Source: Cyclobacteriaceae bacterium
Lineage (GTDB): Bacteria > Bacteroidota > Bacteroidia > Cytophagales > Cyclobacteriaceae
Direction of reading: 5' to 3'
Assembly (NCBI GenBank): GCA_020436085.1
Contig: JAGQYM010000047.1
Coordinates: forward strand, 1-32,925
Length of the DNA stretch: 32,925 bases
Part shown: positions 1 to 18,203 of the stretch, piece after piece
Layout of the letters: each line of letters opens with the position of its first letter
Position numbering within the stretch: position 1 is the stretch's first letter
Notes under the pieces: generated by a model
Seen by the model: the letters and a program-made list of their open reading frames with translations, nothing else
What the model was told of the DNA's origin: nothing
Databases searched by the model: none
Made by a program: the position numbers and the translations under genes

Positions 1-2
1 TA

Positions 3-584
3 GGTAAAGTGAAAGTTCAATTAGGCGATGCGCGGAACTTAAAGGACGTAAGTGACAAATCTATTTCTGCAATTATCACCTCACCGCCTTACCTAAACGC
101 ATTGGACTACATGAGAGGGCATAAGCTTTCCTTGGTATGGCTGGGACACAAAATTAGTGAGTTGGGCAACATTCGTTCAAACAGCGTTGGCGTTGAGAAG
201 GGCCCAGACTCTACCGCTGATCTCCATCTCACAACCGAACTGACAAAAGGGCTTAATCACTTGGAAAAACTACCAAGGAGAAAACAAAACATGATTAGAC
301 GGTATGCACTAGATATGTACGAAGTTGTAGAGGAATCCGCCAGGGTCTTGGAAAAAAAGGGCCAGGCAACATTTGTTGTTGGCAATTCTTGTATCGATGA
401 AATTTTTGTCGAGAATGCACTGATTATTCGGAATAGCTGCAAAATGGCAGGATTACGACTGGTGAGTCAAAAGGAAAGGGAAATTCCTCAAAATAAAAGA
501 TACTTACCACCACCGTCTTATGATAACGTCTCAACTTTTAAAAGCAGAATGAAAACTGAATCGGTTATGAGGTTTTCAAAGTAA
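3..584 (+). CDS. DNA amino-methyltransferase (N4-C/N6-A), 5'-truncated by window edge
   Basis: The reading frame is open to the left edge, so this is the C-terminal part of a longer gene; a GTG lies at 9 but need not be the start. Visible are a GDAR motif leading to the catalytic motif IV TSPPY (Ser codon at 81), then a conserved LNALDY stretch, and about 90 residues later a hydrophobic strand followed by VVGNS, the usual motif VI-VIII layout of N4/N6 amino-methyltransferases. The AdoMet-binding FxGxG motif I is absent from the visible part. It must lie upstream if the enzyme is complete, which suggests a motif order with I before IV. The enzyme would methylate exocyclic amino groups of DNA using AdoMet. 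It is the first visible gene of a compact co-directional cassette ending with a HerA-like ATPase; the gap to the next gene is 6 bp. The likely role is self-DNA marking in a defence or epigenetic system (inference). The family call is firm; the target site is unknown. Confidence 0.85.
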   Translation, partial: GKVKVQLGDARNLKDVSDKSISAIITSPPYLNALDYMRGHKLSLVWLGHKISELGNIRSNSVGVEKGPDSTADLHLTTELTKGLNHLEKLPRRKQNMIRRYALDMYEVVEESARVLEKKGQATFVVGNSCIDEIFVENALIIRNSCKMAGLRLVSQKEREIPQNKRYLPPPSYDNVSTFKSRMKTESVMRFSK

Positions 585-590
585 ATTTCA

Positions 591-1229
591 ATGGCACAAG
601 CAACACCAGATGAGATAGAATTACATAAACTGATCCGGTTAGGTGATGACTTGGCGTTTGCTAAACTTTGCGACACGTATCTTGAACCAACAATCAAAAA
701 GGTCCGGAATTTCAACTGGCAAATATATTTGAGTGATAGCAGCTTGATTTCAGAAGTAGTCATTGACTCCTTTTACGGGTACTTCTACAATCCCGAAAAA
801 TTCAATCCTGAAAAACAAACGCTCGAAAAATTTCTTGTGATGGATGCTGAAGGTGACTTGAAAAATGCCTGGTCAAAACGAGCGAAACATCAGCAAAAGT
901 TCAAATCAATAGATAACGAAGTCGAGTTTAATGAACAATATTGGAACAGCAAGAAAGAGGGAAATGTGAGCGTTGACACGCCAACTCAAATCATGATTGA
1001 TAACGAAGCGGAAAAAATTTTGAATGCTGAGCTAGAAAAACATTTTGACTCAGACAAGGACGTTGAAATGGCGAATCTAATACTTGCTAAGGAAAGGGGC
1101 ACAGATGCTTATGCCTGCGTTCTAGAAATTACTCACCTCAGTTTTGAAGAACAACAGCAAGAGGTAAAAAGGAATAAAGACAGAATTAAGAAAGTTTTGG
1201 ATAGAAAGATGAAGGGCAAACAATTTTAA
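591..1229 (+). CDS. Sigma-70/ECF-like protein within HerA cassette
   Basis: This 212-residue soluble protein starts six bases after the methyltransferase stop. Residues about 15-35 (RLGDDLAFAKLCDTYLEP) resemble the region-2 start of ECF sigma factors (GD..AF..L...Y). The following stretch, with VIDSFYGYFYNPEKFNPEK and a KFL segment, fits the helical core of sigma region 2, where a short-chain D.F motif precedes a 'filled in X% of the array' spacer. The C-terminus (about 165-212) is basic and helical, with EEQQQEVKRNKDRIKKVLDR, which could be a degenerate region 4 or a coiled coil. A clean region-4 helix-turn-helix is not evident by eye. The role could be directing RNA polymerase to the cassette promoter, or a repurposed nucleic-acid-binding protein. 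The family call is by pattern only and is moderate; the gene itself is secure from codon structure and tight spacing. Confidence 0.6.
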   Translation: MAQATPDEIELHKLIRLGDDLAFAKLCDTYLEPTIKKVRNFNWQIYLSDSSLISEVVIDSFYGYFYNPEKFNPEKQTLEKFLVMDAEGDLKNAWSKRAKHQQKFKSIDNEVEFNEQYWNSKKEGNVSVDTPTQIMIDNEAEKILNAELEKHFDSDKDVEMANLILAKERGTDAYACVLEITHLSFEEQQQEVKRNKDRIKKVLDRKMKGKQF

Positions 1230-1240
1230 AAGAAACCACA

Positions 1241-1606
1241 ATGGACGAAAAAATTAAGATGTTGGAACTAGCCTCATGCAAGGCCGCAGCCGACAGTGGC
1301 TTTATTGCCTATCTAGTGAACAAATATTTGGAAGTCGAAAATATTTCAGAACAGGAGATTCTTTCCGCGCTTCATTGTTCGGAAGAAGATTATTTCAAAT
1401 TAAAATTGTGCAGAGTTCCAGATGTCAATGCAACTGACTTTGTTTCTCGATTGAACAGAATTTCTGAGTACACAAATTCATCTTCAGTTGAGTTGAATAA
1501 AATTATTAAACGGGCTAACTCAATTTTGAGATTGAGCGGAGACAATGTTGAACAGCACAACTATTTAATGGCCGCAAGAGATAAGCAAAACAAAGAAAAG
1601 AAGTAG
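1241..1606 (+). CDS. Small helical protein, probable HTH/XRE-like partner of ImmA/IrrE peptidase
   Basis: This 121-residue acidic-to-neutral helical protein starts 11 bp after the sigma-like gene and ends 4 bp before the metallopeptidase gene. Residues about 35-60 (ISEQEILSALHCSEEDYFKLKLCRVP) read like a divergent helix-turn-helix: a helix, a short turn at HCSEED, then a second helix. A second helical block follows (FVSRLNRISEYTN.SSVELNKII). Small XRE-like repressors or antitoxins are the usual neighbours of ImmA/IrrE peptidases, and position here supports that pairing. There is no signal peptide, membrane segment or metal motif. The function is not established: the HTH reading is a visual inference, and the protein might instead be an adaptor for the sigma-like gene product. 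The gene call is good; the role is weak. Confidence 0.55.
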   Translation: MDEKIKMLELASCKAAADSGFIAYLVNKYLEVENISEQEILSALHCSEEDYFKLKLCRVPDVNATDFVSRLNRISEYTNSSSVELNKIIKRANSILRLSGDNVEQHNYLMAARDKQNKEKK

Positions 1607-1610
1607 TCTA

Positions 1611-2363
1611 ATGAAATTTATATCCTCTGTTGTTACTCAGGCCGCAAAGGACTTTTGGAAAAGAGCCGGAAGAAACGGTGTGTTTCCTTGTGACATTAGT
1701 GGAGCAGTGAATCTTGTTTTGCCAATTGACATCATTTGCCTTTCTGAATTGAGCCTTAAGAAAATTCAACTCTGGCTAACAACGCGAAAAGTATTTATTG
1801 ACCTCGAAATAGATGACCGACTACTCCACGGCTTTATACTAATTTCTAGGGGCTGCGGGTTTATCTTTATTAACGGAACTGACACTGAAGAAGAGAGAAG
1901 GTACACAATTGCTCATGAGGCAAGTCACTTTCTATTGGACTATAAATTTCCAAGAGAATTAGCTGTTCGGAAATTAGGTGAATCTATTTTAGAGGTAATG
2001 GATGGCTACCGTGAGCCAACACTTGAAGAAAGAATTGATGGAGCACTTACATCGGTAACGATCAAGCCGTATACACATTTACTAGAAAAGACCGGGGACG
2101 GGACCTTTGACTGCTTGAATATCCAGCACTCAGAAAATGAGGCGGATGCCCTGGCTTTAGAATTGTTGGCTCCTAGCGCAACCGTCATCAAAGACACTAA
2201 CCCCAACAAGACTAAGATTTCATTCTACGATTTCAAAAATCAGTGCTATCACATTTTGAGAAGCAAATATCTGATACCCGATTCAATTGCCGAGGCTTAC
2301 TCTTCCAAACTTGCTTATGTAGCCAAAGGGGCGCCATCGCTCGTTAGCAGGCTGGGATTTTGA
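1611..2363 (+). CDS. ImmA/IrrE-family metallo-endopeptidase
   Basis: This is a 250-residue cytosolic zinc peptidase. The gluzincin motif HEASH lies at about residues 103-107 within an IAHEASHFLLDY context. The third ligand region is NEADALALELLAPS at about 178-191, the standard spacing and wording of the ImmA/IrrE (DUF955) family. The N-terminal 80 residues are less conserved and include a possible sensor or substrate-docking region (SELSLKKIQLWL). Family members such as ImmA and IrrE cleave a cognate DNA-binding repressor (ImmR, DdrO) after DNA damage or mobile-element cues. By that analogy this enzyme would relieve repression by a neighbouring HTH protein, probably the 121-residue gene 4 bp upstream (inference). 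A 52-bp gap separates it from the next gene. The family assignment is firm; the substrate is unknown. Confidence 0.88.
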   Translation: MKFISSVVTQAAKDFWKRAGRNGVFPCDISGAVNLVLPIDIICLSELSLKKIQLWLTTRKVFIDLEIDDRLLHGFILISRGCGFIFINGTDTEEERRYTIAHEASHFLLDYKFPRELAVRKLGESILEVMDGYREPTLEERIDGALTSVTIKPYTHLLEKTGDGTFDCLNIQHSENEADALALELLAPSATVIKDTNPNKTKISFYDFKNQCYHILRSKYLIPDSIAEAYSSKLAYVAKGAPSLVSRLGF

Positions 2364-2415
2364 GTTTGTCGAACTTTTTATCGGCAATTGGGAATAGCTA
2401 ATTGAAAGGATAAAA

Positions 2416-3630
2416 ATGGACAAAAAGGAACAAATATCATCATCAGACCTACCAAAGAACACTGGTGAGAATGCTTTGTCCATTGATGATTTTCACAAGG
2501 CATTTGGGGAGAACTTTTCTGATGCAATTGATATAAATACTTGGAGTATCGGTGCAAATCTCTCTGAGCTCTATCCGCTAATCGAAGCAGAATGGTTGCA
2601 AGCCAAAACTGATGAAAGTAAGAATCAAAAAATTTTCAGAGAAAAGGTATTTCCGAGAATCAAAGAAGTTGGCAATGTCCCTTTTGCCGGCTTGCACGAT
2701 GATGTAAACGATGTCAAACAGTTACTCGACAAAATGCACAGAGGCTTTCTATTCAATGGTGCTGTTACCGCCTGCGGAAGCACACATGTGATTTTCAATA
2801 CTGTCCCGCTCACGATCACTCAAATAGGAATTTGCCTGGTAAACTACGAAAGGCAACACGGGAGTTATTCACATCGATTGTTCAGGAGAGACTTGAGATT
2901 TAAAAGTGACGACCCGATTCAAGAGGCTCTTGACTTGATTGAGAAAAGAAGAAGCGATGACAATGCCGGTGACAAACGTAGTGCCATGAGCAACCTTGCT
3001 GTAAGAGGAATTAAGGCATACACAGAAAGAGCAATCCTTTTGGACAAAAAAGATGTGAAAACAAAATGGCTTTTGGGAAGTGGTAGCCCTGCGCCATACG
3101 AACTCATGACAGGATTTTGGGGAAGTAAAAAGGAAATGAAAGACAAATCCATTGAATTAATGAGTCGAATGATTTTGGAGCATCAGCGATTTGTTTATGT
3201 ACATAGTTGCGAAAAGTTTCCTGATTTATGGACTTTAGGCAACGCTTTGAATCCATTTGAGTACTTAATTCTTGGTTCACTTGAAGATGATCTAGTCCGT
3301 AGAGTTGATCTTGGCGGGACGAGGGGGGTTATTAGAGAATCTTATGCCGATTTCGCAAAGCAGGTGGGTTCGAAAATTGTCCGTGGAATTTATCGCGTGT
3401 CAAATCAAGCCCAACCTCAGATCTTTTACGGACACATCGACCATATTCGAACTGCTGCTTTAATTGCAATGGCTGACAGTGTTTTTCAACTGCACTCGGG
3501 GAGCCCTATGCTTCTTGATTTAGCATCGAACCTTTGTAAAATGAATTTTAGTAAAAACGATTTATTCTCATCAATTCAACAAGCATCAATAAAAGCAGAA
3601 GTAAAACTTCGGGTAGCTAATAGTCATTAA
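2416..3630 (+). CDS. Uncharacterised 404-residue protein, candidate NurA-like partner of HerA
   Basis: The start is supported by AAAGGA at 2405-2410, five bases before the ATG. The protein is soluble with a variable N-terminal 90 residues, then a block at about 110-155 (FNGAVTACGSTH then a hydrophobic strand and LVNYERQHG). It continues with an ER pair and a LLGSGSPAPYELMTG block near 215-240, and ends in a C-terminal module with GHIDHIRTAAL, ADSVFQ and HSGSPMLLDLA. This order, and the position directly before a HerA ATPase gene (11-bp gap), recall NurA 5'-3' nucleases: an N-terminal DGS acidic motif, a middle lDGsL motif, and a C-terminal GfP..L..A motif. The expected DGS aspartate appears as CGS, so the nuclease may be inactive or use other acids (ER, GHID). 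The NurA reading is an inference from pattern and position; I do not recognise the family with certainty. Confidence 0.5.
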   Translation: MDKKEQISSSDLPKNTGENALSIDDFHKAFGENFSDAIDINTWSIGANLSELYPLIEAEWLQAKTDESKNQKIFREKVFPRIKEVGNVPFAGLHDDVNDVKQLLDKMHRGFLFNGAVTACGSTHVIFNTVPLTITQIGICLVNYERQHGSYSHRLFRRDLRFKSDDPIQEALDLIEKRRSDDNAGDKRSAMSNLAVRGIKAYTERAILLDKKDVKTKWLLGSGSPAPYELMTGFWGSKKEMKDKSIELMSRMILEHQRFVYVHSCEKFPDLWTLGNALNPFEYLILGSLEDDLVRRVDLGGTRGVIRESYADFAKQVGSKIVRGIYRVSNQAQPQIFYGHIDHIRTAALIAMADSVFQLHSGSPMLLDLASNLCKMNFSKNDLFSSIQQASIKAEVKLRVANSH

Positions 3631-3641
3631 ATAATTGCTCT

Positions 3642-5465
3642 ATGGAAAATAACGGACAACCCCGGCAATCAGAATTGCACGAAATTATCGACAAGGAAAT
3701 TTTAAATAACGGTGGAGAATGGGCAAGCGACCCGAATTGTGAAGGTGCAACTGGCATGACAATGTTCGATCTTCCTAACAGCCAGGACAATTTAATTTCT
3801 GTCCTTCTACCAATGAATAAAATAAAAGATATCGGTGCGCATTCGATTGTGGAGATAAGAAGCAGGAGCACGGCAAATGGCGGGGATGGGAAAATCTATA
3901 GAGGCATTGTTGTTGCAGGTCCCTTTCATGACCCAGATGGAATTCGTGCCGATGCACCAATTCTAATCTCAACCACTATCAATGGTGCAATTTTTCTTCC
4001 CAATTTTCATGGTAGAGTTTTAGTGGAATTACTAGGAGAATTGAATGAAGATGCGATAATGCCGCCTAGATTCCGACCATTGCCAAATAGTCCAGTTTTT
4101 GTTTTGGATAAAGAGGAAACTGCTAACGTATTAAATGTGCAAGGCAATGTATCACTTGGCCAAGCAATCGGACACGACAGCATTGACGTGTGCATCCCGG
4201 CTGACAAGAAGGTTGTTTTGCCACGACACACTGGAATTTTAGGAACAACCGGAGGAGGTAAGTCAACAACAGTTTCTGGACTGATTGACCAGTTCCAAAA
4301 AGAGGGTATTGCAACTATTCTGATAGATACTGAAGGTGAGTACACACACATGGACAAGGCGACAGAAGCTGGCAATATGAAAAAGCTTCTAAGCAAGCGT
4401 GGAATTGACCCTCATGGAATAGAAAATATAAAGGTCTATTACCCGTTTGGTCGGGAAACGAGGGCAGATGAATCCACTCCTTCCAGTGAGTTTAATTTGA
4501 AGTTTTCAAACCTCTCCCCTTATGCTGCTGCCGACATACTTGGTTTGACTGAGGCTCAATTTTCTAGATTTATTAAGATTTACGATGCCGCTAAACTGAT
4601 TTTGAGAGACCTTGGTATTTATCCAACGAGGCAACAGCAAAACGAAGTTCTAGATTACGATGAATTTGAGTCAGGCTATCCTCACATCACACTTTCCCTA
4701 TTGATTGACATTGCTGGTCTTGTTCTAGAAAAGATCTCTGTCGGTTTTGAATGGCACGTGCATAACAATTTTATTAGGCAGGGCAAGCAGGCCATCGCTA
4801 AACGAATTGAAGTTGTTGCTAAAGGAACTGATAGTGAAACTTCATGGAAAGCGCTGCTTGGTAAACTTGGGCAACTCAATAGAACCAAAATGTTTGACAG
4901 GCAAGATGACGCAGACATTCCTTACACAGAGTTGGTCAAAGCAGGCACTGTTTCAATTTTTGATTTAAGTGATTCCGATTCCACACTCGTCAATAATATC
5001 GTAATCGCTAATCTTCTCCGCGGTGTTCAACAAGTACAGGAAGCCGCTTACGAGGATGCGATTGCAAAGAGTAAAAGCCCAACCCCAGTCGTGATAATTA
5101 TTGAAGAAGCGCATGAGTTTTTGTCGAAGGAGAGAATTAATAAAATGTCAAACTTGTTCGAACAGGTTGCTAGAATAGCAAGACGAGGAAGAAAACGCTG
5201 GCTGGGTTTGATGTTCGTTACTCAACTTCCTCAGCACCTGCCTGACGAGGTCCTAGGCTTGATAAATAGCTTTGTACTTCATAAAATTAACGATGCAACT
5301 GTAGTAAGTCGACTAAAACGATCAATAGGTGGTGTCGAAGAAAGTTTGTGGAACAAACTGCCCAATCTGGCCCAAGGGCAAGCGATCGTTTCAACACCAA
5401 GTTTAACAAGGCCGCTTTTAGTTGCGATGCATCCGACACCTTGTAAGTTGCTCATGGTTGACTAA
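3642..5465 (+). CDS. HerA-like (DUF87/FtsK-HerA superfamily) hexameric ATPase
   Basis: This 607-residue DNA translocase has an N-terminal beta-rich region (about 40-170) fitting a HAS-barrel. Walker A is GTTGGGKST at residues 201-209, followed by an IDTEGEY strand. An insertion of about 200 residues separates this from Walker B, IIIEEAHEFL, with EEAH at 488-491. Then come an arginine-finger-like stretch (RIARRGRKRWLGL), the sensor strand FVTQLPQHLP and the HKINDATVV block typical of HerA. HerA forms hexameric rings that translocate on dsDNA and work with a NurA nuclease in end resection; in bacteria HerA homologues recur as the motor of anti-phage systems (Sir2-HerA, DUF4297-HerA). It is the last gene of the cassette, 11 bp after the 404-residue candidate partner. 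No terminator is visible in the 44 bp downstream. The family assignment is very secure; the role in defence is inferred from context. Confidence 0.93.
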   Translation: MENNGQPRQSELHEIIDKEILNNGGEWASDPNCEGATGMTMFDLPNSQDNLISVLLPMNKIKDIGAHSIVEIRSRSTANGGDGKIYRGIVVAGPFHDPDGIRADAPILISTTINGAIFLPNFHGRVLVELLGELNEDAIMPPRFRPLPNSPVFVLDKEETANVLNVQGNVSLGQAIGHDSIDVCIPADKKVVLPRHTGILGTTGGGKSTTVSGLIDQFQKEGIATILIDTEGEYTHMDKATEAGNMKKLLSKRGIDPHGIENIKVYYPFGRETRADESTPSSEFNLKFSNLSPYAAADILGLTEAQFSRFIKIYDAAKLILRDLGIYPTRQQQNEVLDYDEFESGYPHITLSLLIDIAGLVLEKISVGFEWHVHNNFIRQGKQAIAKRIEVVAKGTDSETSWKALLGKLGQLNRTKMFDRQDDADIPYTELVKAGTVSIFDLSDSDSTLVNNIVIANLLRGVQQVQEAAYEDAIAKSKSPTPVVIIIEEAHEFLSKERINKMSNLFEQVARIARRGRKRWLGLMFVTQLPQHLPDEVLGLINSFVLHKINDATVVSRLKRSIGGVEESLWNKLPNLAQGQAIVSTPSLTRPLLVAMHPTPCKLLMVD

Positions 5466-5509
5466 TTCCGTTTTCCAAATCGTGCTCTCATAGAACCGAC
5501 AATTTGCGA

Positions 5510-5517
5510 TATCTTTG
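5510..5517 (+). promoter_or_regulatory. Candidate Bacteroidota -7 element (TATCTTTG)
   Basis: TATCTTTG matches the Bacteroidota -7 consensus TAnnTTTG exactly and lies seven bases before the ATG at 5525, which would give an almost leaderless transcript. No convincing -33 TTG element was found at the usual spacing. Confidence 0.4.
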
Positions 5518-5524
5518 GGCTAGT

Positions 5525-5971
5525 ATGAACCGAACCACGAAAGGATTTCTTCTGACGTTTGTTGCACTGATTGTTTGTTATCAATCTGCGCTATCCCAAC
5601 GCAATCCAACTGAGACATTGATCCTTAAAATCTCCAGTCAGAAATCGGATTGGATGGTAAAACAAAAGATAGATTCACTAAAGGCATTGATGGACGATCA
5701 GTTCTTGTTCATTCACTCCAATGGATGGACGCAATCAGCGAAGGATTTCTTCGATGACTTTGCCTCCGGCAAACTGGTGTATACCCACATCGAACCTATG
5801 GAGGCATCTGTCAGAATCTTCAATGAAACGGCTGTACTAACGGGTAAGGGAAATTTTTCCGGCACAGTCGAGGGCAAGCCTTTCAAACTTCCATTGATTT
5901 ACACGGAAGTGTATGTGGTGAAAAATCAACGTTGGATTTGGGTGTCACGCCAGTCTACGCGGCTTCCTTAA
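5525..5971 (+). CDS. Secreted NTF2-like (DUF4440/SnoaL-type) protein
   Basis: The ATG at 5525 is preferred over an in-frame TTG at 5504 because it begins a clean signal peptide (hydrophobic core LLTFVALIVCY, then a SALSQ cleavage region near residue 25). The mature protein of about 120 residues has the DUF4440 pattern: an N-terminal helix with DSLKALMDDQFLFIHSNGW, a DFFDDFASGKLVYTHIEP helix-strand, and a final sheet with AVLTGKG and the terminal WVSRQSTRLP. These NTF2-fold proteins often bind small ligands or act as isomerase-like enzymes; no catalytic residues can be assigned here. The protein is presumably periplasmic. It is convergent with the permease gene, 11 bp away, and starts the ordinary chromosomal region after the HerA cassette. 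Confidence 0.75.
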   Translation: MNRTTKGFLLTFVALIVCYQSALSQRNPTETLILKISSQKSDWMVKQKIDSLKALMDDQFLFIHSNGWTQSAKDFFDDFASGKLVYTHIEPMEASVRIFNETAVLTGKGNFSGTVEGKPFKLPLIYTEVYVVKNQRWIWVSRQSTRLP

Positions 5972-5982
5972 AAATTATCGGC

Positions 5983-8592
5983 CTATTCCGTCTTCAGTCC
6001 ATCCACTGCGTTGGTTTTGAAGACTTTGACCACCTGCGTGGAGATGGTGCCTAGCAAAACAAAGATGAGCAAAATAGCAGCCAGCCCCACATGCCAAAAC
6101 GTAACATTCATATGATACGCGTTAGCGAAATCCATGATTGCCACAATCACCACATAGCTAAGTGGTGTTCCCAGCGCGAGCGAAAAACCGAGCAGGAGGT
6201 AATATTGTTGAAAAATGCTGTTGCTGATATTTTTAATATTGGCACCCAGAACCTTTTTTATGCTGAACTCCTTCTTGCGGCTTGATACATTCAATGACAC
6301 TAGTCCATACACACCCAGCAACGCCAGCATCACAGCAACGGATGCAAAGACTCTCCACACATGCCCATGGATGCTAAGCTGTACATAGTAGGTTCCCCAT
6401 ACGTCTTCCTGGTAGCCACCGCTGAAAGGTGATTCCGGAAAAAGCAACGACCATTTTTTTCGAAGAAATTCGTAAGACTCACGCATTGATCCCTTCTCCA
6501 CTTTCATGGACAAGAACCGATAATCACTCTTATCGGCATGTGTGAAAAAAGTCGGCCGCAACGGACTGGAAAAACTGTAGCTGTGAAAGTCCTTCACCAC
6601 ACCAATCACCTCATATTGCACGCTGTCCATTTTGAATTGCTCTCCAACTGGATTATCCCAGCGGAGTCGTTCAACCATAGTTTGGCTAACTACCACGCCT
6701 TGTCGATCGCTGGTTTCATGTTCATTGAAACCTCTACCCTGAACGATATCGACACCCATTGTATTGAAGTAGTTGCCATCCACGGCTAACATGTCAACCT
6801 CCTGCTCCTGACTCGGAAAGGCAATCAACACCTGTCGCTGCTGCCTGCCAATATGCTGCACCGAACGCGCAGTTGAGATAACGTGAGCATTTTCTTCCAT
6901 CACATTCTTCAACTGCTCCACGGAGAGCTCATCCGGCAATTGCGCATAGATCACATCGCGATTGCTGTAACCCCACTCCCTTTCAGCCAGGTAATCGCTG
7001 TTGAGTGTAAAGATCACTGCGCTGGTGATAAACACACACGCCAAAACAAGTTGAAAACCTAAAAAAACTTTGGTAATCGGGTTCTTTTGACCAAACCGTA
7101 GTGACCCTCTGAGTATACTGACGGGTTGAAACCTGGAAATGTAGAGCGCAGGGTAAATGCCAGAAGCGATGGCGGTAAAGAACATTACAACCACAAGGAA
7201 GATCCACAAGTTAACATCACCGAATTTAAAGTCCATGCTGAAATACCAAAGTCCTTCAAACCAGGGAATGACTACGAAACGTCCCAAGAGGATACCAATC
7301 AACAACGCAAAAAAAGTAGTGACAATATTCTCTGACAGAAACTGCAAGATGATCACTTTGCGTGTAGCACCAATGGATTTTCTAACACCAAGTTCCTTCA
7401 ATCTTTTTGTGACCGATACAATCGCGATATTGATGTAATTGGAACAAGCGAGCGCCAACATTAGAATGGAAATTGCTGCCAGGAAAGCGATAGAAGCGAT
7501 GTTATCTTTTGTACCCTCACGAAAAATATCGTCTCGGATGTCTTCGGTTTTAATGTGCAGTGTAGCGAGTTGTTCCAGTCCAAGTGAATCAATGGCAAAG
7601 TCTTCCGACACGGCTTCATTTTGCAATTGCCTGTACTTAGTCATGCCCCGAAGTACGGGCTTGATGTCCTTAGGATCATTCACCTGAATAAAGGTGGCGT
7701 TGAGTTGTGCAGCCCAATCGTGAAAGTTGTAGTCTGATTCGCTGGTACGCAGATTGTCAAAGTGGGCGAGAAAGGTGAAGTCCATACTACGCGCATCGGG
7801 AAACTTACGCGCCACACCCACAACTTTGAACTCTTTGCTTCGGTCTTTATCAAAATTTATAAGCAGAATCTCTCCAACTGGATTCTGTTCCCCAAAATAC
7901 TTTTCAGACATTGGCTCGCTGATGACAATGCTATTAACATCCTTAAGAGATTCAGCAGCACCCCATTTCAGTGGGAATGTAAACATCTGGAGAAAGGTGG
8001 GATCAACCAGACGAATGCGTTCATTAAAAACCTGATCGTGATATTTCACCACAATGTTCCGATCTTCTACCCTGCATACTTTTTCTATTTGTGGAAAATC
8101 CTGTTGCAATGATTCAGCCAGCGGACGTGGTGTTCTGCCATATTCTTGCATTGTTCCATTTCGAGGTGCAAATGCTGTGACGAGGTAAACTGAATTTTTA
8201 TTCTCGTGAAACTGGTCCCTGTCGTAGGTCCAACGGAAGATAGCGTAGGAGAACATGCAAATCCCGATCGCGGAGGCAAGTCCAAACAAATTGATAAACG
8301 AATTGAGTGGGTTCTTCATTAACCCGCGAATGGAGACCTTGAAATAATTACTTAACATGCCAAATCGGTTAAATGAGTTTAAGAATCGAAACTGCCGGAT
8401 CAAACCAGGTCGCAGGAGTTTGATCATCTCCCAAGTATAAATGCGTATTGCTTTTCGCACAGAATACCGTTCCACATTGTCGAAGAAAATTTCTTCCATG
8501 TCGCCTTCAATCTCTTCGAGATACTGTTCCCGAATGAAGAGGCGGAGGAGCTTAAGCGGCCACTTTGGTGGATGTAAGGATTCGTTTCTCAT
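5983..8592 (-). CDS. FtsX-like ABC transporter permease with N-terminal permease-prefix domain
   Basis: This is an 869-residue inner-membrane protein. The start at 8592 (MRNESLHPP) is chosen because its A is shared with the TGA stop of the PadR gene (TGATG), a typical translational coupling; a longer in-frame start at 8637 would overlap PadR. The first 75 residues form the soluble 'permease prefix' seen in Bacteroidota (YLEEIEGDMEEIF). Then come a first TM helix (SFINLFGLASAIGICMF), a MacB-type periplasmic domain, a three-helix FtsX block (IASIAFLAAISILMLAL onward with LKELGVRKSIGA), a second MacB domain and a second FtsX block (VSSRKKEFSIKKVLGAN), ending in KTNAVDGLKTE. No ATPase gene is adjacent, so it must borrow one or act as an orphan. 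The likely role is lipoprotein or peptide extrusion, or cell-envelope signalling (family knowledge); the substrate is unknown. Confidence 0.9.
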   Translation of the reverse strand: MRNESLHPPKWPLKLLRLFIREQYLEEIEGDMEEIFFDNVERYSVRKAIRIYTWEMIKLLRPGLIRQFRFLNSFNRFGMLSNYFKVSIRGLMKNPLNSFINLFGLASAIGICMFSYAIFRWTYDRDQFHENKNSVYLVTAFAPRNGTMQEYGRTPRPLAESLQQDFPQIEKVCRVEDRNIVVKYHDQVFNERIRLVDPTFLQMFTFPLKWGAAESLKDVNSIVISEPMSEKYFGEQNPVGEILLINFDKDRSKEFKVVGVARKFPDARSMDFTFLAHFDNLRTSESDYNFHDWAAQLNATFIQVNDPKDIKPVLRGMTKYRQLQNEAVSEDFAIDSLGLEQLATLHIKTEDIRDDIFREGTKDNIASIAFLAAISILMLALACSNYINIAIVSVTKRLKELGVRKSIGATRKVIILQFLSENIVTTFFALLIGILLGRFVVIPWFEGLWYFSMDFKFGDVNLWIFLVVVMFFTAIASGIYPALYISRFQPVSILRGSLRFGQKNPITKVFLGFQLVLACVFITSAVIFTLNSDYLAEREWGYSNRDVIYAQLPDELSVEQLKNVMEENAHVISTARSVQHIGRQQRQVLIAFPSQEQEVDMLAVDGNYFNTMGVDIVQGRGFNEHETSDRQGVVVSQTMVERLRWDNPVGEQFKMDSVQYEVIGVVKDFHSYSFSSPLRPTFFTHADKSDYRFLSMKVEKGSMRESYEFLRKKWSLLFPESPFSGGYQEDVWGTYYVQLSIHGHVWRVFASVAVMLALLGVYGLVSLNVSSRKKEFSIKKVLGANIKNISNSIFQQYYLLLGFSLALGTPLSYVVIVAIMDFANAYHMNVTFWHVGLAAILLIFVLLGTISTQVVKVFKTNAVDGLKTE

Positions 8593-8930
8593 CAAGCCAG
8601 TTTCACTTCGTACGCCAGTTTGGGAATGGCACTCCACAAACCCGCACGAATGTTTTTCATTTCTTCCAAAACCTTGCGGCCGTGAGACGTGGTAGCATAG
8701 ATGCGCTTTCGCTTGCCTCCTCTTTTCTGTGTTGGTTCGCCAAATTGAGAAGTTAAATATCCTTTGTCTTCCATCCGCTTGAGTGCAGACTGTATCGAGC
8801 CGACACTCAGTTTCTCTTTGAGCCTTTCCTCCAGTTCACGTTTTATTTCAACGCCATAAGCTTCCGATTGCAACGCGGCAACTGTGAGTAGAACCAGTTC
8901 TTCGAATTCACCCAGTTTGGTTTTCTTCAT
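8592..8930 (-). CDS. PadR-family transcriptional regulator
   Basis: This 112-residue winged-helix protein has the N-terminal PadR signature LGEFEELVLLTVAAL, the YGVEIKRELEERL helix, the recognition helix region SVGSIQSALKRMEDKGYLTS, and a basic wing (TQKRGGKRKRIYATT) before a short C-terminal dimerisation helix. It is the first gene of a two-gene minus-strand operon with the permease, overlapping it by one base. In Bacteroidota such PadR/permease pairs are common, the regulator presumably controlling its own operon in response to an envelope or drug signal. Two 12-bp direct repeats 28-73 bp upstream (8958-9003) could be its operator. The family is firm; the ligand is unknown. Confidence 0.92.
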   Translation of the reverse strand: MKKTKLGEFEELVLLTVAALQSEAYGVEIKRELEERLKEKLSVGSIQSALKRMEDKGYLTSQFGEPTQKRGGKRKRIYATTSHGRKVLEEMKNIRAGLWSAIPKLAYEVKLA

Positions 8931-8957
8931 ATCACGTGGGAGTGATTGGTATATTAA

Positions 8958-9003
8958 TCGTAATTGCAGTAAATATGTTGCATTATTTTATTCGTAATTG
9001 CAG
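8958..9003. repeat. Pair of 12-bp direct repeats upstream of padR-permease operon
   Basis: TCGTAATTGCAG occurs at 8958-8969 and again at 8992-9003, a 34-bp start-to-start spacing (about three helical turns). The flanks are also partly alike (TTAA/TTAT before each). The pair lies just upstream of the PadR start, so it is a candidate operator or activator site. The spacer contains an ATGTTGCAT dyad at 8975-8983. Confidence 0.5.
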
Positions 9004-9048
9004 ATTTTATATAGAAACCCTCTTCCTGATCAAAAAAGGCAATAAAAA

Positions 9049-9074
9049 ATCCCCAGGCGGTGAAGCCCAGGGAT
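9049..9074 (-). terminator. Rho-independent terminator of the MBL-fold hydrolase gene
   Basis: The hairpin is ATCCC (9049-9053), a CA bulge, GGC (9056-9058), loop GGTGAA, GCC (9065-9067), a CA bulge and GGGAT (9070-9074). On the minus strand it is followed by a run of T residues (complement of the A-rich 9032-9048), 26 bp after the hydrolase stop codon. Confidence 0.75.
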
Positions 9075-9100
9075 CAATTCAGTAACTGTAATCCTATCCT

Positions 9101-9985
9101 CTACTTCTTCGTTAGGTTCTCGGCCACCATCATCACGAAGTCTTTGCCCTTCACAAATCCCTTGCCCCATTCAGCATCGTACTTGGAAGCAATCGGCAAG
9201 TTGGCGATGTCCTCAGTTTTCGTTCCTTTTTTCAATGCAGCAGCAACTCCGTCTCGAATTTCGGCTAAACGATCGCGAAAAGCCTGAACATCTTTTTTGC
9301 TGGCGAGTTCACCATGACCGGGAATGATCTTCGTATTGTCATCCATGATCTTCAGCATCTGATCAAGCGTGGCGATAAATCCATTGATTCCTCCCCCACT
9401 GTTCGTATCCACAAACGGATAACCATACTGCACGTACATGTCGCCTGTATGAATGACGTTCGCTTTGGCAAACTTGATAATTACATCGCCATCTGTATGT
9501 CCCGTATTGAAATGATACAGTTCGAGATCTTCATTGTTCCAATGAATATTCATTCTGTCTGGGAACGTAACTACTGGCCACGCTGCCTTGTCGCGCGGTG
9601 GCACTACGCGATCTCTTACTTTGCCTTCCTTCATCATGCGTTCCCGCACGTTGTCATGCGCTACGATCGTCACACCCCACTTTTTGAAATTATCATTACC
9701 TCCTGTGTGGTCACCGTGAATGTGCGTATTGATCAGCATCTTGATTTCACCTCCACCTTCCTCAACCACAGTCTGGGCAATCTTTCCAGATAATGGACCG
9801 AACTGATTGTCAATAATCAGAGCTCCGTCTTCTCCCTTCAAAAAACCAATATTACCACCTGCTCCTTTCAGCATATAGATGGTCTCAGTGATTTTCAAAG
9901 GACGAATCCTAACGGTATCATAATTGGTTTGTGCCGATGCGTTGATGACCAAGGCAAAAGCAAGAAGGGCGACAAAATGCTTCAT
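9101..9985 (-). CDS. Secreted metallo-beta-lactamase-fold hydrolase
   Basis: This is a 294-residue protein with an N-terminal signal peptide (MKHFVALLAFALVINASAQ). The dinuclear zinc motif HIHGDH is at residues 88-93, with H163 in GHTDGD, D182 in HTGDMY and H224 in PGHGEL, so all the usual metal ligands are present. The pattern is that of the broad periplasmic MBL-fold hydrolase group that includes class B beta-lactamase-like and quinoprotein-relay proteins. Nothing in the sequence fixes the substrate, and beta-lactamase activity cannot be assumed. The gene is monocistronic: it has its own terminator downstream and a 126-bp divergent gap to the Ada-like gene upstream. The fold and metal site are certain. 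Confidence 0.9.
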   Translation of the reverse strand: MKHFVALLAFALVINASAQTNYDTVRIRPLKITETIYMLKGAGGNIGFLKGEDGALIIDNQFGPLSGKIAQTVVEEGGGEIKMLINTHIHGDHTGGNDNFKKWGVTIVAHDNVRERMMKEGKVRDRVVPPRDKAAWPVVTFPDRMNIHWNNEDLELYHFNTGHTDGDVIIKFAKANVIHTGDMYVQYGYPFVDTNSGGGINGFIATLDQMLKIMDDNTKIIPGHGELASKKDVQAFRDRLAEIRDGVAAALKKGTKTEDIANLPIASKYDAEWGKGFVKGKDFVMMVAENLTKK

Positions 9986-14461: not shown

Positions 14462-15625
14462 ATGCTCGCACGTTCACTTGTTGGTCTTTTTGCCTTCCTC
14501 AGTTTCATTCCCTTCACCCTTGCACAGGACAAAACCTCCAGCACTTTTGGCAAGGGAATTCGAATTGCAGCCAAGGATTCGTCATTCACCATGAAGTTTA
14601 GTACCAGAATCCAAACGCTGTATGATGGCAGGTTAAACCTGGAAACCAACGACTATAACGATCGGTTTATGACTCGCAGAGCCCGCCTCAAATTTGATGG
14701 GTTTGCCTACAGCCCAAAGCTGGTTTATAAAATAGAATTGGCGGTTGCTAGTTCTGATATCGCGGGCGGGGATAGCAATGAATTTGGAAATACATCGCGC
14801 ATCATTCTTGATGCGGTTTTAAAATGGAACTTCGCGCCCAACTGGGAACTATGGTTTGGACAAACTAAGCTGCCCGGTAATCGCGAGCGTGTGATCTCAT
14901 CTCAGAACCTTCAATTTGTCGATCGCAGCAATGTCAATGCCAGGTTCAATATTGACCGCGATGCCGGTATTCAACTTCACTATGGAAAAAATAAATTCAA
15001 CTTTGTTAGCTCAGTATCGCTTGGCGATGGAAGAAACATCGTTTCCAACAACGTAGGGGGATACGACTACACAGTTCGTGGAGAGTATTTGCCTTTCGGT
15101 GAATTTAAGAGTGGTGGTGACTATTTCAGCGCAGACCTGAATCGGGAAGAAAAGCCCAAGCTTTCCATTGGAGTGACCTACGACTATAATGACCGTGCAT
15201 ACCATGAACAAGGGCAACTTGGAGATGCACTTCCTGCGCAACGTGATCTGGAGACATGGTTTGTAGATGCTCATTTTAAATACAACGGTTGGTCGTCACT
15301 CCTCGAGTATGCACACAAGACTTCCCCAGATGGAGCCGCGATCTTTGATGGCAATGGGAATTTCGTTGATGCCTTTTATACCGGGGAGGGAATCAGCTGG
15401 CAAGGTGGATACCTATTCAAAAATAATTTTGAACTAGCTGGACGCTATACACAGGTAAGTCCTGAGCGTGTCACGCTACGAAATGATAACACGCAATACA
15501 CCCTGGGTGTTTCAAAATATTTCGTGGGTCATAGCCTTAAAATTCAAAGCGATGTCACCTTGATCAAGGAGGACACACGCGATGATGTACTCATGACTCG
15601 CCTTCAGGTGGAATTATCTTTCTGA
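14462..15625 (+). CDS. Phosphate-selective porin O/P-like outer-membrane protein
   Basis: The start at 14462 begins a signal peptide (MLARSLVGLFAFLSFIPFTLAQ); an in-frame start at 14390 would add an unlikely leader. The 387-residue precursor shows the Porin_O_P pattern: FGKGIRIAAKDSSFTMKFSTR with an R-rich RRARLKFDG strand, FVDRSNVNARFNIDRDAGIQ, alternating beta strands throughout, an FNFVSS strand, and a final aromatic-ending strand (LQVELSF). OprP/OprO-type porins form trimeric, anion-selective channels, classically for phosphate or polyphosphate. The specificity here is inferred from family membership only, but the phased repeats upstream support phosphate control. It is probably monocistronic, with 105 bp to the next gene and no visible terminator. 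Confidence 0.82.
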   Translation: MLARSLVGLFAFLSFIPFTLAQDKTSSTFGKGIRIAAKDSSFTMKFSTRIQTLYDGRLNLETNDYNDRFMTRRARLKFDGFAYSPKLVYKIELAVASSDIAGGDSNEFGNTSRIILDAVLKWNFAPNWELWFGQTKLPGNRERVISSQNLQFVDRSNVNARFNIDRDAGIQLHYGKNKFNFVSSVSLGDGRNIVSNNVGGYDYTVRGEYLPFGEFKSGGDYFSADLNREEKPKLSIGVTYDYNDRAYHEQGQLGDALPAQRDLETWFVDAHFKYNGWSSLLEYAHKTSPDGAAIFDGNGNFVDAFYTGEGISWQGGYLFKNNFELAGRYTQVSPERVTLRNDNTQYTLGVSKYFVGHSLKIQSDVTLIKEDTRDDVLMTRLQVELSF

Positions 15626-15730
15626 GTAAATCCCACGTTTTACGGCATCCCCTCCGTTTCTCATCCAATTTTCTGAACTTTCGAAGGGGGTTATTCGTAC
15701 TCTTTAGGAACCACCTAAATCTATTCTGAG

Positions 15731-16531
15731 ATGCGATTGATGAGGAAATTTTTCAGATTTCTTTCACTTGACCTGTGGGGGCGTCTTCCAGGTAGCTGGC
15801 AGCGCTCATTATCAAGGATTTATGCTCAGCTGTATTCCAAAAGTTACAGCCGCCACTTTATTGGTCCGTACTGTAAAATCAACTATCCCGATCCTGAATA
15901 CCTGACTCAATTCAAGCCGGCCAGTGGTGCATCATCTTATACGAGCTTTCAAGATTTCTTTACACGCGTTTACAAGGAACCGATCCGCATTGACAGCGAT
16001 GCCATCTGGCCTTGCGAAGGATTACTTTGCGAACACGGTCGGGTGAGCGAGACGAGTTTGGTGAGTGTGAAAGGTCAGAAGCGACACCTTAGAACAATTT
16101 TTGGTGACCGCGGAAATGCCATTCCGAAGGACTATTACTTCTCAAATGTATTTCTGCACAACAACAACTACCACCGGATACACAGCCCGGTGAAAGGATC
16201 AGTGACACGCATAGAGCACATCCCTGGTGACCTGGTGATATTAAGACCATGGATTTATAAAAGTGATCCTTCGTTGCCAGCTTTACGCAATGAGAGATAC
16301 AACGTTGATATAAGAAGTGAATCTGGTGCAGAGTGGTTTCTGTCAATTGTTGGCGGTCCAGCCGTAGGATCCATTGTCCTCTCCGAAGGCATGAAAGTTG
16401 GCAGCTTCGTGCAGATAGGTGAAGAACTTGCCAAATTTCTTTTAGGCTCCACATGCTGCATTGCATCTCCAAAGCCTGTAGACAGTTCGCTGCTTGGCAA
16501 ACAAGTCTTTGTCGGCCAGCCGATCGGGTAA
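15731..16531 (+). CDS. psd: Phosphatidylserine decarboxylase (pyruvoyl enzyme) with PCEG in place of PaDG
   Basis: This 266-residue proenzyme has FQDFFTRVYKEPIRID (about 73-88), then WPCEG at 93-97. The conserved NYHRIHSPVKG (146-156) carries H148 and H151. The C-terminal self-cleavage site is LGST at 238-241, between Gly239 and Ser240, which would yield the pyruvoyl-bearing alpha chain. PSD makes phosphatidylethanolamine from phosphatidylserine at the inner membrane. In E. coli the triad Asp90/His147/Ser254 drives self-processing; the aligned position here is Glu96, a conservative but unusual change. No adjacent PS synthase is seen. The family is strong because of LGST and HRIHSP; whether it decarboxylates PS or is a paralogue is not settled by sequence. 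Confidence 0.88.
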   Translation: MRLMRKFFRFLSLDLWGRLPGSWQRSLSRIYAQLYSKSYSRHFIGPYCKINYPDPEYLTQFKPASGASSYTSFQDFFTRVYKEPIRIDSDAIWPCEGLLCEHGRVSETSLVSVKGQKRHLRTIFGDRGNAIPKDYYFSNVFLHNNNYHRIHSPVKGSVTRIEHIPGDLVILRPWIYKSDPSLPALRNERYNVDIRSESGAEWFLSIVGGPAVGSIVLSEGMKVGSFVQIGEELAKFLLGSTCCIASPKPVDSSLLGKQVFVGQPIG

Positions 16532-16625: not shown

Positions 16626-18203
16626 ATGATGCGATTTTCATTTGTCCTGCTCGCCTTCTTTTTTTCCCTTACGGCCTGCCAACAGAAGTATGATCTGCTG
16701 ATCAAGAACGGATCTGTGTATGACGGCACAGGAAATGCGCCAGTAAAAGCTGACGTTGCTGTTAATGGCGATCGAATTGTAAAAGTGGGAGACCTTTCCT
16801 CTGCAACAGGTACTCGTATTATTGATGCCGAAGGAATGGCGGTAGCACCGGGATTTATCGATCTGCATGCACACCTGGAGCCATTGCTTGAGTTACCACA
16901 GGCAGAAAGCGCTCTTCGGCAGGGCGTGACCACTTCACTTGGTGGTCCAGACGGATCTTCTCCTTGGCCTATTGGACAATACCTGGATGAAGCAGACAGC
17001 ATTGGCATGGGAATGAACGTGGCATTTCTCGTTGGCCACAACACTGTGCGAAGAAATGTGATGGGAATGGACAACAGGCCGCCTTCAGCTGAAGAGCTCC
17101 AAGCCATGAAAAATCAGATCAGGCAAGGCATGGAAGAAGGGGCATTTGGCATGTCAACTGGATTGAAGTATTTGCCGGGAGCATTCTCCAATGTAGATGA
17201 AGTAATTGCTCTCTCTGAAGTGGCGTCCAAGTACGATGGCATCTATACCTCTCATCTGCGCGAAGAAGGAATGGGATTGCTCGAAGCTGTGGCGGAGGCA
17301 ATAAAGATTGGTAAAGTTGCTAACATTCCGATCGTGCTTACCCATCACAAGGCGATAGGTACAAAAATGTGGGGCGGCAGTGTGAAGACGCTGGCTATGG
17401 TAGATAGCGCGCGAGCGATCGGCATAGATGTAATGATGGATCAATATCCTTACAACGCCAGCTATACAGGCATTGGAATTTTAATTCCATCCTGGTCGAT
17501 GGCTGGTGGTATCGAAGAGTTTAAGAAGCGATTAAAAAAACCTGCGTTGCTCGATAGCATCAAACGCGGGATCATTAACAACATTCTTTATGATCGAGGT
17601 GGCGCAGACCTGAATCGAATTCAGTTCGCACTTGTCGACTGGAAGAAAGACCTGGAAGGTAGAACCCTGCATGACTGGTTGGTGGAAAGAAATATGGAAC
17701 CGTCTGTTGAGAACGGAGCAGATCTGGTTATCGAGGCGCAGCTCAATGGTGGGGCCTCCTGCGTTTATTTTGCAATGGACGAAGCTGACGTAGAGCGTAT
17801 CATGAAACACCCTCAAACGATGATCGCTTCGGATGGAAGATTGGTAGCACCTGGAGATGGTCATCCGCACCCAAGATGGTACGGCACGTTTCCGCGCGTG
17901 CTTGGCGTTTATGCGCGTGAAAAAAATGTGTTGACTCTGGAAGATGCTGTAAGAAAAATGACATCACTGCCAGCCGATAGACTCGGGCTAAAGGAGCGTG
18001 GAAGAATTCAAGAAAATACTTTCGCTGACATTGTGGTGTTCAATCCAGAAACTGTAGTCGATAAAGCTACTTTCCAAAATCCACACCAGTATCCTGAAGG
18101 CATTGATTACGTCATTGTAAATGGTCAACTGGCCGTTGACAATGGAGAATTCAAAGACATCCGTTCAGGTAAGGTGCTGAGAAGAAAGAATTACGAAAAG
18201 TAA
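16626..18203 (+). CDS. Lipoprotein amidohydrolase of the N-acyl-D-amino-acid deacylase family
   Basis: This 525-residue protein has a lipoprotein signal (lipobox LTAC, Cys18), so it is membrane-anchored outside the cytoplasm. The metal motif HAH is at 81-83, with H210 in YTSHLREEG and H240 in VLTHHKAIG, 30 residues apart as in the Alcaligenes D-aminoacylase (H220/H250). A later IASDGRL supplies the catalytic Asp. The conserved Cys96 of D-aminoacylase (GNCG) is replaced by Asp109 in GGPDG, so metal binding may differ. The family hydrolyses N-acyl-D-amino acids, or in related members D-peptide or hydantoin substrates. Two ATGs in tandem (16626, 16629) are both plausible starts. It is convergent with the carboxypeptidase gene, with a 3-bp gap. 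Confidence 0.87.
   Translation: MMRFSFVLLAFFFSLTACQQKYDLLIKNGSVYDGTGNAPVKADVAVNGDRIVKVGDLSSATGTRIIDAEGMAVAPGFIDLHAHLEPLLELPQAESALRQGVTTSLGGPDGSSPWPIGQYLDEADSIGMGMNVAFLVGHNTVRRNVMGMDNRPPSAEELQAMKNQIRQGMEEGAFGMSTGLKYLPGAFSNVDEVIALSEVASKYDGIYTSHLREEGMGLLEAVAEAIKIGKVANIPIVLTHHKAIGTKMWGGSVKTLAMVDSARAIGIDVMMDQYPYNASYTGIGILIPSWSMAGGIEEFKKRLKKPALLDSIKRGIINNILYDRGGADLNRIQFALVDWKKDLEGRTLHDWLVERNMEPSVENGADLVIEAQLNGGASCVYFAMDEADVERIMKHPQTMIASDGRLVAPGDGHPHPRWYGTFPRVLGVYAREKNVLTLEDAVRKMTSLPADRLGLKERGRIQENTFADIVVFNPETVVDKATFQNPHQYPEGIDYVIVNGQLAVDNGEFKDIRSGKVLRRKNYEK

Follow-up and report, generated by a model that had tools for sequence, protein, structure and literature searches.

The first 5,465 nucleotides of a 32,925-nucleotide stretch of Cyclobacteriaceae DNA (hereafter the window, which is contig C133 of the 4.4-Mb draft genome G000 and begins at base 1 of that contig) carry a cassette of six open reading frames (ORFs) on one strand, encoding a DNA amino-methyltransferase, a putative extracytoplasmic function (ECF)-like sigma factor (p2), a small protein (p3), an ImmA/IrrE (M78) metalloprotease (p4), a protein of unknown fold (p5) and a HerA/FtsK-type DNA motor (Table 1). 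The intergenic gaps are, in order, 6, 11, 4, 52 and 11 bp, and the GC content is 0.408 in the cassette vs 0.443 in the rest of the window; these values bear out the first-pass annotation, which had described a discrete, AT-richer cassette of six co-directional genes separated by 4–52 bp. PADLOC returned only generic HerA, methyltransferase, mad8/mad2 and capP-type matches for the cassette, and a promoter/terminator scan of generic type performed no better than on shuffled sequence.

Table 1. Genes and predicted promoter of the cassette (window coordinates).
Feature	Position	Strand	Best match or basis
DNA amino-methyltransferase, C-terminal half with TSPPY	3..584	+	PADLOC MTase_II 4.4e-17
Putative ECF-like sigma factor p2	591..1229	+	NCBIfam sigma70-ECF 2.4e-4, under curated cut-off
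Small protein p3, candidate inhibitor (anti-sigma or helix-turn-helix repressor) and candidate protease substrate	1241..1606	+	position
ImmA/IrrE (M78) metalloprotease p4, HExxH intact	1611..2363	+	Pfam Peptidase_M78 3.7e-7
Predicted ECF-type promoter of p5-HerA: TGTCGAACTT (2367-2376), N14, GGAATAG (2391-2397)	2367..2397	+	
HerA-partner protein p5, unknown fold	2416..3630	+	no family match
HerA/FtsK-type DNA motor	3642..5465	+	Pfam DUF87 1.8e-20, HerA_C 3e-11

Seven such cassettes were identified, five in genomes or metagenome-assembled genomes (MAGs) and two on phage-like contigs from IMG/VR (L070 and L071). The order sigma-p3-M78-p5-HerA is fixed in all seven, and the methyltransferase gene is adjacent, either upstream (five cassettes) or convergent at the 3′ end (L070 and L071). 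L006, from a Chitinophagales MAG, has the six genes in the same order within different surroundings, with a HerA 85% identical to that of the window; it was the single locus returned by a scan of genome contigs with HerA, which detects close relatives only. A p5 profile run against 390 sampled genomes of the order gave ten matches, seven of which were marginal (E 0.04–0.09) and were dropped, leaving two true relatives besides the own genome (L016 and L017), in both of which all six genes are ordered alike at 23–57% local identity. The fifth cassette, L069, came from 206 sampled family genomes and likewise has six genes in order. The contig of L071 begins within the sigma gene, which was recognized by its C-terminal part (E 7e-12); p3 of L071 was recognized at 7e-19. 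The first-pass annotation had held that its reading would fall if the genes co-occurred in this strain alone; the seven cassettes, present in bacteria unrelated to one another and on phage-like DNA, extend well beyond the strain, and finding the same set in six other places argues for more than chance.

The system is rare. Carriers of p5 numbered 1/345 and 2/395 among sampled genomes of the phylum, 3/390 of the order, and 1/222, 1/8 and 2/206 of the family, in samples that overlap and with known carriers included each time; the scans of the 345 and 395 phylum genomes and of the 222 and 8 family genomes returned only copies already known. The HerA subfamily was matched at E ≤ 1e-30 in 3 of 194 genomes of the order, exactly the three with p5. 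No new cassette was found in plasmids searched with the window p5, the window HerA or the L016 p5, in phage records searched with HerA (one weak partial match), or in viral contigs searched with protein profiles.

The 52-bp gap before p5 contains TGTCGAACTT-N13/14-GGAATAG, a pattern of the ECF promoter type. The 10-mer TGTCGAACTT lies upstream of p5 in six of the seven cassettes, and the second box varies (GGAAATAG in L017, GGAATGG in L069), ending 10 to 45 bp before the p5 start in five cassettes; in L070 the pattern falls within the 3′ end of the M78 gene. Outside the closest pair the remainder of the gap is barely alignable, and the longest word common to the gaps of the window, L016 and L017 is 10 bases, a length reached in 0 of 20,000 single-base shuffles (one reached 9). 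Since L069 was located by protein, its 10-mer serves as held-out confirmation. The pattern TGTCGAACTTN{10,17}GGAA occurs 1, 1, 2 and 1 times in genomes G000, G383, G405 and G941, each at the gap, with the extra G405 copy inside its sigma gene; a reversed control pattern occurs 0, 1, 1 and 0 times. The stricter pattern, used alone against a viral collection of 2.9 million contigs, picked out six stretches, of which one was a new cassette (L070) and five held no cassette gene. With one mismatch allowed, the 10-mer occurs four times in the window vs 2.8 expected, so that the motif is telling only when it is exact and in its place. Within the sigma gene itself, at the same codons, there is a perfect copy of the promoter motif in L016 (6998-7028, + strand) and a near copy in L069 (near 11235, − strand), perhaps an internal autoregulatory promoter. 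The −35 element of Escherichia coli RpoE is GGAACTT, and classical ECF −35 boxes contain AAC, according to the part of the source available (PMC8103513); the −35-like box here resembles that of RpoE. Taken with its rarity and recurrence, the gap pattern indicates that the cassette probably comprises not one operon but two units of transcription and an internal switch, the sigma factor of the cassette driving p5-HerA.

We infer, from this arrangement and from the affinities of p2, that p2 recognizes the gap element and drives p5-HerA. The sigma-like label that p2 had received was upheld at a weak level, by the NCBIfam match and by a search with its structure model. Matches to sigma70-ECF were found in 2/4 p2 members (best 1.1e-5) and to Sigma70_r2 in 1/4. 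The predicted structure is of low confidence (mean pLDDT 52.1); in a Foldseek search the first 18 PDB matches are titled as sigma factors or transcription complexes, none at E ≤ 0.001, and include region 2 of sigmaE (TM 0.69 by target). Thus, p2 appears, weakly, to be sigma-like and to resemble sigma region 2. The phage-like contig of L070 encodes another protein that has Sigma70 region 2 (17413-18069).

The small protein p3 sits between the sigma and protease genes in 7/7 cassettes. The database searches gave no credible family match for p3, and the helix-turn-helix-like label of the first-pass annotation was not sustained; by eye alone, it is XRE-like in appearance. The ImmA/IrrE label of p4 stands (Table 1). 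HExxH is kept in all seven M78 proteins, and the five that were scanned all match PADLOC capP (3.3e-7 to 1.2e-10; window copy 3.5e-8), and p4 has the M78 domain with HExxH expected of a CapP. Single-stranded DNA activates CapP, which then cleaves CapH, according to the portion of PMC13373217 available; by analogy, p4 may cleave p3. The same portion describes CapW, CapH-CapP and CapK-CapS as regulating immune operons via release of repression, and an arrangement of that kind would offer another explanation of the gap element, namely that p3 or some other repressor uses it as an operator, with the sigma-like protein a degenerate DNA-binding part of the complex and the whole a CapH-CapP-type switch placed before HerA. 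The capP matches of the M78 proteins, the XRE-like appearance of p3 (judged solely by eye) and the presence of a similar site within the L016 and L069 sigma genes are all in keeping with an operator. However, two boxes spaced 13–14 bp apart, a GAACTT box and a location just upstream of p5 fit a promoter, no long palindrome was seen by eye in the element, and p2 resembles sigma region 2; we therefore regard an operator as an unlikely explanation, if one with several points in its favor.

Because base 1 of the window is the contig start, the window methyltransferase is only a C-terminal half, for which the Pfam E-value is just 0.1 to 0.15. A homologue profile search placed the missing N-terminus at the end of contig C180 of the same genome (G000:C180:3-356; L022:1-377, minus strand), at a distance of about 145 bp from a gene that, judged by eye, encodes an M20 peptidase; about 80 residues between C180 and C133 are absent from the assembly. 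A complete homologue is encoded in L006 (399 aa, 81% identity across the shared part, with DPMVGSGT and TSPPY). The complete homologues have both S-adenosylmethionine motif I and (S/D/N)PPY, of which the window half has TSPPY, and these motifs together with the MTase_II match confirm the amino-methyltransferase call. The methyltransferase family also exists apart from the remaining cassette genes: on Allorhizobium plasmid NZ_CP049245.1 (L019) a methyltransferase 42.5% identical to that of L017 is encoded, with the other five genes absent within 21 kb. That gene has as neighbors another methyltransferase gene, a gene with a sensor histidine kinase annotation and hypothetical genes, a set that may form a different system. 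The HerA/DUF87 call was likewise correct: the window HerA has the Walker A, Walker B, sensor (Q) and arginine-finger motifs of HerA/FtsK motors, and its nearest solved relative is the HerA of PDB 4d2i (1.9e-21). The L071 HerA matches only two of the four motif strings exactly.

For p5 there was no Pfam, PADLOC or PHROG match and no PDB match better than E 0.05, and the predicted structure has a mean pLDDT of 32.7. The first-pass annotation had taken p5 for a possible NurA-like nuclease, which would make the cassette an ordinary restriction-modification system in which HerA and an active NurA-type nuclease cut DNA left unmarked by the methyltransferase. In L016 and L017, p5 has DG[ST]x4D and G[FY]P[MIL]x[LI]xxA (GFPMLIDIA-type) motifs at NurA-like spacing, and 0 of 200,000 shuffles per sequence gave both, a result that pertains to L016 and L017 only and to motifs picked after viewing the sequences. 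The catalytic Asp of NurA lies in a motif named DGS. Asp49 of Thermococcus kodakarensis NurA is described as essential in the available part of PMC12977600. Against such a nuclease, L069 and L071 deviate from the first motif and both motifs are absent from the window p5. Pfam NurA gave no match in 4/4 p5 members; PF09376 matched in 24 of 198 genomes, the own genome not among them. In hhalign comparisons of p5 with nine NurA proteins (9 of 15 NurA loci; the other six kept no plus-strand ORF), column-permuted controls equaled or exceeded the observed score in 12/60 (seven members), 11/60 (five members) and 2/60 (four members). Identification of p5 as NurA by profile was rejected on Pfam, on hhalign against permuted columns and on Smith-Waterman shuffles. 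The NurA-like nuclease label is therefore not supported for the window p5, in which the candidate catalytic residues are also replaced, and ordinary restriction-modification seems to us a doubtful account of the cassette.

The surroundings of the seven copies differ. Relative to flanking DNA the cassette is lower in GC in five of the seven, equal in L070 and higher in L069. L070 lies between type I restriction-modification genes (R, M and S, accompanied by an AbiEii-like AAA_21 ATPase) and a serine recombinase (462-7940, 14890-16251), surroundings that resemble a defense island on a phage-like contig, and L071 adjoins phage tail and GH108 lysozyme genes. The other five copies are flanked on each side by at least 3.7 kb of genes that look chromosomal by eye, the DUF4440 gene being the only one given a family search. 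That gene, the next downstream of the 3′ end of the window cassette (Pfam), is matched in 21 of 30 genomes of the genus, at ≤45% identity outside the own genome. By eye, window positions 5983-32925 hold ordinary chromosomal genes (ABC permease, PadR-type regulator, ClpB-like, M56/BlaI-like pair). TIR-like genes and a HEPN/MNT-like pair, named by eye, lie near two cassettes (L069 3287-4930; L017 3373-4114). The two copies on viral-collection contigs, one of them beside phage tail and lysozyme genes, would suit a cassette that serves a phage or mobile element (in DNA transfer, packaging help or superinfection control) and not the cell; however, with five of the seven copies amid chromosomal-looking genes, and with the methyltransferase and the type I neighbors of L070 fitting defense, service to a phage or element is quite improbable.

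The p5 proteins of the window and L006 stand apart from the other five, in which a DG pair, the histidine of GHG, an RGFP stretch and a C-terminal ERxTR tail are invariant; in the window and L006 these are replaced or missing. The HD pair found in four other copies (FE in L071) is FN in both. The two proteins, from separate assemblies, share these changes except at the GHG histidine, where one has S and the other N. Between the window and L006, dN/dS (NG86) is 0.024 for p5, the lowest of the six genes (0.037–0.093 for the others), values that are only rough because dS is saturated. In trees without support values, the stem leading to the window and L006 is 0.65 for p5 vs 0.19 for the L069 tip, and 0.38 vs 0.56 for M78. 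Residue losses, low dN/dS and a long stem fit a change of role in p5 followed by strong constraint; if p5 proteins were ever catalytic, the copies of the window and L006 have probably lost this activity. That the window copy is simply decaying and functionless is very unlikely: p5 has indeed lost residues invariant in the five others, and two other copies contain a frameshift or a stop, but its rough dN/dS is the lowest of the six genes, and in the window neither the motor nor the protease motifs have been lost.

The databases and literature searched yielded no named system that combines all six genes, as the first-pass annotation had supposed; among the matches listed, no title or abstract in the open literature describes the six-gene set. 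Its overall interpretation thus stood in part: a discrete, low-GC, unnamed set was upheld, whereas the NurA-like partner and the helix-turn-helix label were not borne out, and the sigma-type promoter pattern of the 52-bp gap had no place in it. MADS, a methylation-associated defense system of eight genes (mad1-mad8), is approached in that PADLOC mad8 matches the window HerA (1.7e-24) and mad2 weakly matches the L017 methyltransferase (7.2e-8), but generic HerA models score better on the window HerA (1e-32). Membership in MADS was rejected, with no other mad model among the matches listed (best 25 of 50, L017 methyltransferase). DUF4297-HerA and other HerA-plus-partner anti-phage complexes (PMC11291478, as available in part) also encode a HerA ring motor beside its partner; unlike these, the cassette adds a methyltransferase and a three-gene switch, and assignment to DUF4297-HerA was rejected, p5 having no match to DUF4297 or any other Pfam family. 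HerA-NurA, in the available part of PMC12977600, similarly places the motor beside a partner of about 400 aa, and some p5 proteins have the two short NurA-like motifs, but p5 has no profile-level similarity to NurA and the window p5 lacks the motifs. CapH-CapP, in the portion of PMC13373217 already cited, shares the M78 protease, the small gene upstream of it before an effector pair and the capP matches; the cassette differs in its extra sigma factor and sigma-type promoter pattern, and p3 is unrecognizable as CapH. The HerA/FtsK capture systems and BRC (PMC10853773 and PMC12839542, each as available in part) recruit HerA to defense neighborhoods with DNA-binding partners, but the six window proteins have no Pfam match to Orc/CDC6 ATPase, PglZ, DUF6079 or DUF4007, and BRC and Dnd capture systems were rejected because parts are missing.

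Good support exists for both the architecture and the promoter pattern. We infer a defense role from the gene content of the cassette, its mobility and its neighbors. We consider the chances evenly balanced that the locus is a mobile, self-regulating modification-plus-HerA cassette, probably directed against invaders, whose window copy has a derived and possibly non-catalytic partner. In such a cassette the methyltransferase would mark host DNA, and p3 would keep the cassette's own ECF-like sigma factor silent until the ImmA/IrrE protease, activated by some signal (possibly single-stranded DNA, which activates CapP), cleaved p3. The promoter of the 52-bp gap would then allow the released sigma factor to transcribe p5-HerA, and the HerA ring motor with p5 would act on DNA lacking the mark. 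The p5 of the window and L006 might instead serve HerA as an adaptor or by gripping its substrate, or be the partner of a nuclease encoded outside the cassette. A bolder version is offered more tentatively, falling somewhat short of an even chance: the effector pair p5-HerA would be transcribed only by the cassette sigma factor, released by ImmA/IrrE, from a private promoter with about one site per genome, constituting a sigma-gated defense spread among distant bacteria and phages, in one lineage of which the motor partner would be non-catalytic and strongly constrained.

Several observations weigh against the self-regulating defense cassette. The sigma matches of p2 are weak, and its low-confidence model had no Foldseek match at the threshold given above. 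Because p3 has no detectable family, the inhibitor step is deduced from gene position, and the capP matches of the M78 proteins extend over only some 40 residues surrounding HExxH. The −10 box departs from the CGT type of classical ECF promoters, an exact promoter is missing from L071 (best 11/17), and the −10-like box of L069 overlaps the earliest potential start of p5. The L016 methyltransferase (5474-6651) is in pieces over several frames and thus frameshifted, and the L017 HerA (7306-9147) is broken by an in-frame TAG, so that some copies may be decaying or misassembled; L016 would then hold HerA-p5 without a working methyltransferase. Finally, it may be that none of the p5 copies is a nuclease.

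The p5 family, with five members that have the conserved candidate active-site residues and two that do not, offers a natural comparison. If the self-regulating cassette is correctly read, an RNA polymerase specificity factor carried together with its matching promoter would amount to a portable means of arming defense genes in a newly entered host, independent of host promoters.

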